From Candidatus Omnitrophota bacterium (GTDB taxonomy: Bacteria > Omnitrophota > Gorgyraeia > Kaelpiales > Kaelpiaceae): 11,161 nucleotides of DNA. The translations under genes were made by a program, and so were the position numbers. The stretch is taken from positions 1 through 11,161 of the forward strand of contig JAQUNS010000010.1 of the NCBI GenBank assembly GCA_028717465.1, given 5' to 3'. Of this stretch, positions 4,455 through 5,084 are shown one piece after another; position 1 is the stretch's first letter, and each line of letters starts with the position of its first letter. The notes under the pieces are model-generated. The model was not told the DNA's origin. It searched no databases and saw nothing but the letters and a program-made list of their open reading frames with translations.

Positions 4455-4527
4455 CGTCCCCAGCCGGGTTTGAACCGGCGCCGACGGCTCGAAAGGCCGT
4501 TGTCCTAGGCCGCTAGACGATGGGGAC
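4455..4527 (-). tRNA. tRNA-Glu (anticodon UUC)
   Basis: The 73-nt sequence on the minus strand folds as a full cloverleaf. The acceptor stem pairs GTCCCCA (4527-4521) with TGGGGAC (4462-4456), with discriminator G at 4455 and no encoded CCA. The D arm is GTC-TAGCGGCCTAG-GAC. The anticodon stem pairs ACGGC with GCCGT around the loop CTTTCGA, giving anticodon TTC (4493-4491), which reads Glu codons GAA and GAG. The variable loop is 4 nt, and the T arm pairs GCCGG with CCGGC around TTCAAAC. Its first 23 nt also encode the end of the upstream GIY-YIG gene, and its first 29 nt are part of a 102-bp repeat found again at 4832-4933. Confidence 0.97.
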
Positions 4528-4600
4528 TTGTTCTAAATTTTTCTGTCAATAATTGCTTAAACGCATTGCCTGCCTTAAATCTTTTAAGCTGCTTCTCGCG
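4499..4600 (-). repeat. 102-bp perfect direct repeat, copy A (GIY-YIG tail plus tRNA 5' part)
   Basis: These 102 bases are identical to 4832-4933 at an offset of 333 bp. The unit holds GIY-YIG codons 61 to the stop plus the first 29 nt of tRNA-Glu. It breaks at 4601 against 4934 (t against c) and at 4498 against 4831 (c against g). This is the copy joined to the intact gene and intact tRNA. Confidence 0.97.
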
Positions 4601-4780
4601 TCTCATAGCTTCTGCTTTTGAAAGATAATCTTCGGCCATCACCAGCTCTATCGGACCCCTGCTTCGTAAATACTTGGACTTACCTCTGCTGTGTTCGCTC
4701 AGGCGCCGATCCAAATTGTTTGTGTGGCCTATATAATACCTGTTGTTCGACTTAATTTTCAATATATATACCACGTACAT
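4505..4780 (-). CDS. Small GIY-YIG nuclease-domain protein, 3' end inside tRNA-Glu
   Basis: The 91-residue protein is essentially one GIY-YIG catalytic domain (UvrC/URI-type, COG2827-like). It has VVYIL at residues 3-7 (GIY position), YYIG at 15-18 (YIG position), the conserved arginines in NLDRRLSEH (22-30), and AEAMRREKQLKRFKAG (56-71), whose Glu57 is the likely metal ligand. Such stand-alone proteins are predicted structure-specific or mobile endonucleases, but their cellular role is not established. The start is the ATG at 4780, with no clear ribosome-binding site. The C-terminal PHRLAA and the TAG stop are read from the first 23 nt of tRNA-Glu, so this tail is a by-product of the tRNA sequence. 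From codon Arg61 onward the gene is identical to a second DNA copy upstream. Position and duplication suggest a mobile or recombining element tied to this tRNA. Confidence 0.85.
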   Translation of the reverse strand: MYVVYILKIKSNNRYYIGHTNNLDRRLSEHSRGKSKYLRSRGPIELVMAEDYLSKAEAMRREKQLKRFKAGNAFKQLLTEKFRTSPHRLAA

Positions 4781-4815
4781 ATTGATTGCTTGTGCCCATC
4801 TAATGTAACCGGCAA

Positions 4816-4860
4816 CGTCCCGCCAAGGCGGGTTGTCCTAGGCCGCTAGACGATGGGGAC
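4816..4860 (-). pseudogene. Collapsed tRNA-Glu remnant
   Basis: Read on the minus strand, this begins with the exact first 29 nt of tRNA-Glu (acceptor 5' strand, D arm, start of the anticodon stem). After 10 unrelated bases it ends in GGGACG, the tRNA's acceptor 3' end plus discriminator base. The match continues through the next three bases: caacgtccc on the plus strand at both 4813-4821 and 4452-4460. The anticodon loop, T arm and most of the 3' half are gone, a net loss of 28 nt. The GTCCC/GGGAC acceptor ends could still pair. It cannot work as a normal tRNA. It is best explained as an internal deletion in a duplicated copy. Confidence 0.65.
4819..4832. repeat. GC-rich 14-bp inverted repeat at the repeat junction
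   Basis: cccgcc-aa-ggcggg has perfect 6-bp arms and a 2-base centre. It lies exactly where the tRNA 5' copy ends and the 3' acceptor remnant begins, so it marks the deletion junction in the collapsed tRNA. There is no T-run after it, so it is unlikely to be an intrinsic terminator. Confidence 0.6.
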
Positions 4861-4933
4861 TTGTTCTAAATTTTTCTGTCAATAATTGCTTAAACGCATT
4901 GCCTGCCTTAAATCTTTTAAGCTGCTTCTCGCG
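4832..4933 (-). repeat. 102-bp perfect direct repeat, copy B (orphan)
   Basis: Identical to 4499-4600. Here the GIY-YIG tail has no intact upstream portion, and the tRNA 5' part is followed by only a short remnant. Full identity across both coding and non-coding bases suggests a recent duplication or gene conversion. Confidence 0.97.
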
Positions 4934-5017
4934 CCACCTATAAAATCTAGACCGATGACAATACTTATAAAGTTTACCATTTTATTTCATTTTTGCAAAT
5001 TTCTTTATCATATATAT
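4861..5017 (-). pseudogene. Possible decayed second GIY-YIG gene
   Basis: Copy B of the 102-bp repeat supplies an in-frame GIY-YIG tail (REKQLKRFKAGNAFKQLLTEKF). Reading the same frame further upstream gives VIYMIKKFAKMK, a TAA stop, then NGKLYKYCHRSRFYRW, which runs into the tail. 'VIYMIK' falls where VVYILK would be, and 'NGKLY' resembles the strand before YIG in this family, with an arginine further along. That would make this a degraded gene with one nonsense codon and an in-frame loss of roughly 30 codons. The similarity is short and judged by eye. The alternative is that only the repeat is related and the rest is ordinary AT-rich spacer. The coding part, if real, would continue into the tRNA remnant as in the intact gene. 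Confidence 0.35.
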
Positions 5018-5084
5018 TACTTGGTAAAGCTGGGCGTGTTCCTCTGGCTAGCATAACTCGGGCAGGCCCCGTTAAACAATATGG

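Follow-up and report, generated by a model that had tools for sequence, protein, structure and literature searches.

The 102-bp direct repeat that joins the tail of a GIY-YIG nuclease gene to the first part of a tRNA-Glu gene is probably the footprint of a minimal homing-type mobile module—a GIY-YIG gene that enters a tRNA gene together with a working tRNA copy—for which reading, based as it is on sequence comparisons, we estimate a probability of about 0.7. This reading is supported by the anatomy of the site, the recurrence of that anatomy at other tRNA genes, the existence of empty sites in relatives, the upkeep of the tRNA, the clustering of the nucleases by tRNA isotype, and the occurrence of hairpins at recurring places in the tRNA loops.

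The window, by which we mean the whole 11,161-nucleotide stretch of DNA that was analyzed, is one entire contig of a draft genome (G000) of 1.04 Mb in 206 contigs that is 76% complete. The order on the minus strand is gyrA, leader, GIY-YIG tail, tRNA-Glu positions 1–29, GC-rich hairpin, full GIY-YIG ORF, full tRNA-Glu, and glmS, where the two flanking genes are presumably gyrA and glmS, as judged from their protein sequences. The features are the following:

4455..4527, minus strand: intact tRNA-Glu (TTC), the sole full match in the draft genome and identical at 73 of 73 positions to that of the sister species G002
4499..4600, minus strand: repeat copy at the intact tRNA, comprising nuclease tail and tRNA positions 1–29, from the repeat search
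4505..4780, minus strand: GIY-YIG nuclease ORF of 91 aa, matching PF01541 at 58.8 bits, with its stop inside the tRNA
4781..4818, minus strand: short spacer separating the hairpin and the nuclease start
4819..4832, no strand assigned: GC-rich hairpin CCCGCC-AA-GGCGGG, which replaces the anticodon arm of the displaced half
4832..4860, minus strand: displaced tRNA-Glu 5' half, positions 1–29, matching at 29 of 29
4832..4933, minus strand: repeat copy upstream of the intact nuclease, comprising the tail of a second nuclease gene and the displaced tRNA 5' half
4841..4936, minus strand: remnant of a GIY-YIG gene, either older or duplicated, comprising residues 60–91
4960..5021, minus strand: native tRNA-Glu leader, common to the empty-site sister species, which the module now parts from the intact tRNA

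A repeat search of the window returned a direct-repeat pair of 109 nt (4499–4607 and 4832–4940; 97% identity, spacing 333) whose identity is complete over the first 102 nt, thus confirming the identical copies at 4499–4600 and 4832–4933 that had been described in an earlier note on this DNA. Since the remaining direct-repeat families of the window, among the 20 of 21 families listed, measure only 20–38 nt at 70–90% identity, a chance origin of the 102-bp repeat is excluded. The repeat spans the 3' part of the GIY-YIG ORF and tRNA-Glu positions 1–29, so that the extent proposed in the note, a nuclease tail plus the first 29 nt of the tRNA, was correct; the two parts are nevertheless not strictly separate, because the stop codon of the ORF lies within tRNA-Glu and the ORF and the tRNA overlap by 23 nt. 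The resemblance of the spacer at 4781–4818 to a tRNA T-arm was not significant (149/1000 shuffles), nor was that of the sequence left of the nuclease tail to an additional tRNA relic (193/1000 shuffles), which relic would be expected from a first insertion. The window holds no 3' relic, and the sequence behind tRNA-Glu tracks that of the sister species. As a separate observation, the displaced half and the hairpin (4781–4860, minus strand) fold in a tRNA-like manner with an acceptor-like stem, at a z of −2.3 and with 2/200 shuffles folding as well.

Regarding the nuclease, its match to PF01541 lies well above the cut-off of 22.6 bits, with the Pfam domain covering residues 1–67 of the 91. Eight residues—Y5, Y16, G18, R26, H30, A58, E62, and K66—are invariant in 20 aligned relatives, and five of these, Y5, Y16, G18, R26, and E62, have catalytic roles; the domain and the invariance of those five place the protein within the GIY-YIG superfamily. 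The solved relatives found by profile were, in the first place, UPF0213 (3.3e-15) and SLX1 (5.5e-8), with I-TevI weakly matched at 8.6e-4. In nucleases of the I-TevI/SegB type a separate DNA-binding part usually stands behind the GIY-YIG domain, but the window ORF consists of a single GIY-YIG domain whose last codons lie inside the tRNA, and such a separate part was not found in it. SLX1, which acts in DNA repair, differs in its longer chains of 183–324 residues, and we know of no mobility for either UPF0213 or SLX1, the closest solved relatives of this nuclease. Searches with the nuclease returned four weak and partial matches in phage records and no match in viral contigs, only weak homing-endonuclease matches in NCBIfam and PHROGs, and eight homologues in the protein database, which, including the query itself, were of little use.

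The sites of close relatives indicate what was added to the window. G001 and G002, which share the genus, and G003, which shares the family, each carry a solitary tRNA-Glu behind gyrA and no nuclease there, these being relatives with zero modules such as the earlier note had recommended seeking; G006 and G041 likewise have one tRNA-Glu after gyrA without a nuclease, and the GIY-YIG matches of G001–G003, among the matches listed, are located on other contigs. The window leader next to gyrA, when compared with the empty sites by local alignment and shuffling, aligned with the leaders of G001 and G002 (loci L114 and L115; 0/500 shuffles each). A full match to tRNA-Glu occurs once in each of G000 to G003, and the displaced half is the only other match. 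Taken together, the empty sister sites, the shared leader, and the single tRNA-Glu mean that the nuclease and the displaced half are additions in this lineage and that an apparently single-copy essential gene stayed whole. In another family, G039 has a nuclease of its own at the same gyrA–tRNA-Glu site.

A simpler form of the module is present in Velamenicoccus archaeovorus (G057), a member of the window's class whose complete genome is a single contig (NZ_CP019384.1), in the order leader, tRNA-Asp positions 1–13, a double hairpin of 59 nt, a further 11 nt of the tRNA, nuclease, and intact tRNA-Asp. In G028, of the genus of G057, the same leader is followed directly by a tRNA-Asp that is identical at 79 of 79 positions to the intact one of G057, and each of the two genomes has one full-length tRNA-Asp match. 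Occupied and unoccupied alleles of one site were accordingly found in close relatives both for the window (versus G001, G002, and G003) and for G057 (versus G028). A stray tRNA-Asp 3' end, AATCCCATCGTCCCC, was observed in G028 (L233) about 300 nt behind the tRNA-Asp, with no nuclease seen. The G028 site may thus not be untouched on that side, and the piece is possibly a relic of a lost element.

To describe how often this anatomy recurs, we used two sets of GIY-YIG genes. The first came from a search of 59 relatives, of which 52 gave matches, and the 113 loci, drawn from among the matches listed, 30 through the search and 80 by place, correspond to 112 distinct genes, the window's own tail fragment being counted as one. 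For 29 of the 112 the gene end coincides with or lies close to the beginning of a tRNA on that strand, and for 83 no tRNA begins between −60 and +150 relative to the stop. Flanking direct repeats scoring at least 30 accompany 21/112 genes, as against 4/447 shifted positions and 2/2240 shuffles; of those 21 repeats, 15 are the 5' part of the downstream annotated tRNA, and two (L104 and L105) are the 3' part of the upstream tRNA. The second set, of 104 genes, combined the best 80 of 148 relatives from a contig scan with loci obtained by searching 292 genomes of the class, among which 217 had a match and from which the loci of at most 30 matches were taken; the contig-scan loci (best 80 of 148) come from Omnitrophota, Patescibacteria groups, Bacteroidota, Acidobacteriota, Zixibacteria, and others. 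Among the 216 pooled genes we considered as tRNA-linked the 69 for which a tRNA begins between −60 and +30 relative to the stop, further tRNA-linked genes being situated just outside this rule; because the second set was chosen by likeness to tRNA-linked nucleases, 69/216 is not a frequency in nature.

The recurring anatomy consists of a displaced 5' part of a tRNA, usually followed by a GC-rich hairpin, then the GIY-YIG ORF, and then the complete cognate tRNA. A cognate 5' relic lies within 220 nt upstream of the nuclease start in 51/69 tRNA-linked genes, in comparison with 0/690 shuffles, 8/659 pairs with another isotype, and 3/67 stretches further upstream; only 1 of the 51 relics is or overlaps an annotated complete tRNA. 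The other 18 have no relic at the threshold, several of them having short interrupted relics by eye and others none. The target isotypes of the 69 are Ser (25), Glu (15), Pro (8), Tyr (7), Asp (4), Asn (3), Arg (2), and Gly (2), plus three that occur singly. In 44/69 the nuclease stop is inside the tRNA, so that 5' processing of the tRNA would strip the stop from the message; the expression of the nuclease and that of the overlapping tRNA may compete. A near-identical module at two sites was not caught among these loci.

When a common geometry (20–560 nt upstream of the tRNA) was applied to all tRNAs, a 5' partial copy was present at 51/68 nuclease-linked tRNAs versus 13/92 tRNAs with no GIY-YIG match upstream, which control had stood at 18/97 before a more lenient GIY-YIG search and is drawn from loci fetched for GIY-YIG genes or tRNAs rather than from a random sample. 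For nine of the 13 relic-bearing control tRNAs, a same-strand GIY-YIG gene follows at a distance of no more than about 180 nt; a relic can thus stand immediately before the intact tRNA and the nuclease lie beyond it, and the order of the module is not fixed. Loci of this kind include L146, L182, L198, L132, and others (tRNA-Thr, -Gly, -Pro, -Asp, and -Lys), where a 5' partial copy, the intact tRNA, and a GIY-YIG gene follow one another. Elsewhere (L078, L087, L090, L102, and L109) the GIY-YIG gene is downstream of the tRNA and a hairpin, TTCTRCTTCGC..., lies directly behind the tRNA, with similar repeats after the nuclease stop in some loci of this class. L104 and L105 bear a copy of the tRNA 3' end behind the nuclease. 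Such tRNA-then-nuclease loci may represent a mirror-image element. At L031, the leader and the first 15 nt of tRNA-Leu are present in tandem copies upstream of a GIY-YIG gene.

The old tRNA can also leave its other end behind. A cognate 3' relic downstream of the intact tRNA was found in 25/64 loci with enough sequence, the best of ten shuffles reaching the score in 1/64, and 1/25 of those relics being part of an annotated tRNA. The 5' and 3' relics together suggest that the old tRNA is a shell split by a nuclease plus a complete tRNA. At L151 the halves of the shell match each other in the acceptor stem and do not match the intact tRNA-Ser that they enclose, which is accordingly no copy of the old tRNA; at several other loci the bases just behind the intact tRNA agree with those behind the 3' relic, fitting a local copy. 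Both a local copy and an outside origin of the intact tRNA may thus occur.

A second type of nuclease appears in the same arrangement within the genome of the window. On contig C126 of G000 (L001, 83–630, minus strand), an HNH-type ORF ends 10 nt before a tRNA-His, with a tRNA-His 5' half upstream. That relic matches at 31/31 positions in G001 and G002, the matched site in G002 being a tRNA-His, and no complete tRNA-His being called there in G001. Aligned with the tRNA-His of G002, the intact one of G000 agrees at 50 of 77 columns, and nothing beyond short partial matches to it was found in G001–G004. Since G000 is 76% complete, a native tRNA-His may lie elsewhere in the genome; from these comparisons, the tRNA-His of C126 is apparently foreign and constitutes the clearest sign that modules can bring their own tRNA. 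A restored part from outside was not seen in the window, whose tRNA-Glu is that of the sister species, but is indicated for this tRNA-His and for L151. Near the HNH module we also observed a GIY-YIG gene that overlaps a tRNA-Arg, accompanied by a 20-base relic.

The mechanism that we propose is as follows, the cutting, the repair path, and the role of the hairpins being what we infer from the arrangements described above. The nuclease, or a relative of it, would cut an unoccupied tRNA gene, and the break would be repaired by copying from an occupied tRNA gene, in which the relic and the intact tRNA could serve as the two homology arms. The host would keep a tRNA, and the old 5' part—sometimes also the old 3' part—would be left as a relic. 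In the window there may have been two insertions, or one insertion and then a tandem duplication, upon which the older nuclease gene would have been reduced to its tail, giving rise to the 102-bp repeat. The nuclease is a plausible cause within this scheme, in line with the suggestion in the earlier note that the GIY-YIG protein itself may have made the break. Several findings run against the homing-module reading: the intact tRNA of the window is that of the uninvaded sister, neither recoded nor visibly foreign; 18/69 linked genes lack a relic at the threshold, and 83/112 genes of the first set have no tRNA beginning nearby; some relics have no nuclease between themselves and the tRNA; the single-domain ORF has UPF0213 and SLX1, rather than I-TevI, as its best solved relatives; the relic expected from a first insertion was not significant; and a near-identical module was not caught at two sites.

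The hairpins are unneeded by a plain homing model. A GC-rich hairpin is present in the 130 nt upstream of 61/69 tRNA-linked genes versus 8/67 control stretches; other sets gave 24/61 for stretches behind the tRNA and 53/132 for other GIY-YIG genes. We placed 46 insertion points (37 upstream and 9 downstream, with 0/69 in shuffles), a few rows having a slack of up to 9 bases or spanning two copies, and two of the downstream rows classed as "other" looking spurious. In the anticodon loop, 9/10 hairpins fall exactly after the second anticodon base, and in the T loop 3/5 fall exactly after TTC; 26 upstream hairpins are before the anticodon arm, 22 of them at positions 12–24, in the D region. In the window the hairpin interrupts the relic, while the intact tRNA-Glu equals the sister's. 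The window's hairpin motif occurs 4 times in the 1.04-Mb draft G000 and 0 times in G001 and G002, so we rejected plain genome background as its source; the motif is yet common in some genomes (21 in G039, 41 in G025, and 44 in G057), and in G032 there were 3 occurrences versus 7 of a reversed control pattern.

If, as one alternative that concerns the mechanism and not the mobility, insertion were directed by structure, a UPF0213/SLX1-type enzyme would cut tRNA genes at hairpin loops that are exposed when the DNA is single-stranded or cruciform, and the hairpins would be joined in along with the nuclease gene, the target being the tRNA shape and not its sequence. That proposal agrees with the ranking of UPF0213 and SLX1 ahead of I-TevI among the solved relatives and with the positions just given in the D, anticodon, and T loops; for an enzyme that read shape alone, however, there would be no need for the nucleases to cluster by tRNA isotype. 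Across a tree that includes 68 of the 69 tRNA-linked genes' nucleases and rests on few columns, the target isotype changed 21 times, as compared with a mean of 39.2 on shuffling (0/200 as low), Tyr and Gly taken singly not being clustered; in an earlier tree of 107 rows all labels together were clustered (23 versus 28.8 changes; 0/200), and Glu, Ser, Asp, and Arg singly were not. Such clustering is what a nuclease lineage that tracks its target would give, and shared descent can also produce it. We consider structure-directed insertion unlikely, if still the most credible of the alternatives.

If, alternatively, the repeat were the outcome of local tandem duplication only, slippage or unequal exchange would have copied the stretch from nuclease to tRNA and one copy would have decayed, with no mobility needed; the earlier note had put forward much the same account, a tandem duplication of nuclease gene plus tRNA-Glu followed by the collapse of one copy. 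In its favor are the identity of the 102 bp across coding and noncoding bases alike, as if recent, the few bases outside the tRNA that in some loci are common to the relic and the intact copy, the relics without a nuclease between relic and tRNA at 13/92 control tRNAs, and the tandem tRNA–nuclease duplications that the phage enzyme SegB is reported to cause (PMC13096335). The unit is indeed present 1.3 times in the window, with one GIY-YIG gene cut to its tail; as the main event, however, duplication and collapse are not supported, since the displaced 5' tRNA part is the usual footprint (51/69) and also occurs without a duplicated nuclease tail, the relics often being accompanied by hairpins and by a 3' relic. 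Moreover, the recurring order of relic, nuclease, and tRNA at many tRNAs, the recurring loop positions of the hairpins, the nuclease-free relatives, and the nonnative rescue tRNAs would all be left unexplained. Local duplication without mobility is therefore improbable in our judgment, and yet may have been the last step in the window.

A repeated nuclease is also present at other loci. Within 600 nt upstream, 5/69 loci have another nuclease gene or fragment. At L194, from Taylorbacteria, the nuclease tail and tRNA-Ser positions 1–36 are repeated with 104 of 110 positions alike; at L188, from Paceibacterota, two modules of tRNA relic plus nuclease are in tandem before a tRNA-Pro, the second nuclease lacking a start and the two copies clearly differing, which locus provides the two-module arrangement that the note had also wished to see. 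What sets the window apart is the nuclease tail dragged along by the displaced half, a trait that it shares with L194. From L194 and L188 it follows that a nuclease tail is dragged along when the tRNA that ends a module is hit again or duplicated, the window being a recent case.

L194 also weighs against an artefact of the draft metagenome assembly, which the earlier note had named as the main alternative and to which a draft of 206 contigs might lend itself: a partly diverged repeat of the nuclease tail exists in another phylum and in an unrelated assembly (L194, 104/110), and the simpler anatomy exists in the one-contig genome of V. archaeovorus, so that we regard an artefact as very improbable. 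Equally improbable is an integrative element at a tRNA attachment site with the repeat as attL and attR, as the tRNA target and a block of identity on both sides might suggest. Integrases classically reuse the 3' part of a tRNA, and here the duplicated part is the 5' half; furthermore, the 231 bp between the repeats are too short for an integrase gene and hold the nuclease as their sole sizeable ORF, and we rejected this candidate upon finding no integrase within the element. Group I introns with homing endonucleases do sit in the anticodon loops of tRNAs, and the nuclease has weak matches to group I intron endonucleases, but a decayed intron of that type is the least credible explanation of all and was rejected, as the downstream tRNA is complete, the relics end in different loops, and the window and 20 related loci contained no group I intron at the Rfam gathering score.

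For the homing-module reading the nearest precedents appear to be phage SegB and the gene-restoring mobile ORFs (mORFs) of fungal mitochondria, with certain mitochondrial hairpin elements as a parallel. SegB of phages T4 and T6 is described as a free-standing GIY-YIG homing endonuclease beside tRNA genes, where the 5' end of tRNA-Tyr shares microhomology with the 3' end of segB and the formation of tandem tRNA–segB repeats requires the enzyme (PMC13096335). The likeness resides in a GIY-YIG gene adjoining tRNA genes; the differences are that SegB belongs to phages and that neither displaced tRNA halves with hairpins nor a rescue tRNA in place of a chromosomal one is mentioned in the text consulted (PMC13096335), whereas the window nuclease is a single short domain in a bacterial chromosome. 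The fungal mORFs, as portrayed in PMC3630166, are known from atp6 in Allomyces and from atp6, atp9, cox2, and nad3 in Glomus, and resemble the present case in that an endonuclease ORF is located in an essential gene, the carried gene end restores that gene, the displaced native end remains beside it, and relatives are empty. They involve protein genes, 3' ends, mitochondria, and, in Glomus, mostly LAGLIDADG enzymes (PMC3630166), whereas the window type involves tRNA genes, mainly 5' ends, bacterial chromosomes, and hairpins in the relic. The mitochondrial double-hairpin or repetitive hairpin-forming elements, single or double, occur in noncoding stretches and RNA genes and are thought mobile, according to PMC2800124; the hairpins reported here differ in being located in displaced tRNA pieces beside a nuclease gene and at recurring loop positions. 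Among the papers listed in our searches of the open-licence literature, none describing the bacterial tRNA case turned up.

Beyond the window, we would give even odds to a wider proposal: that mobile elements of less than a kilobase—small GIY-YIG elements and at least one HNH element, each made of a nuclease and a complete tRNA—are widespread in bacterial chromosomes, where they enter tRNA genes that are essential and single-copy, substitute a tRNA of their own, which keeps the host alive, and leave the old one as a split shell with hairpins at fixed loop positions, in what would be a natural form of cleave-and-rescue and a route of foreign tRNA replacement. If this were true, it would explain why, in Omnitrophota, Patescibacteria, and further phyla that have been little studied, small GIY-YIG genes overlap with tRNA genes, and bacteria would be seen to have an equivalent of the mobile ORFs that restore the gene they enter in fungal mitochondria. 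These would then be natural cleave-and-rescue elements small enough to be tested whole, and the recurring positions of the hairpins in the tRNA loops make the movement of short palindromes directly testable. Finally, essential tRNA genes would be open to horizontal replacement, as may have occurred with the tRNA-His of this genome.
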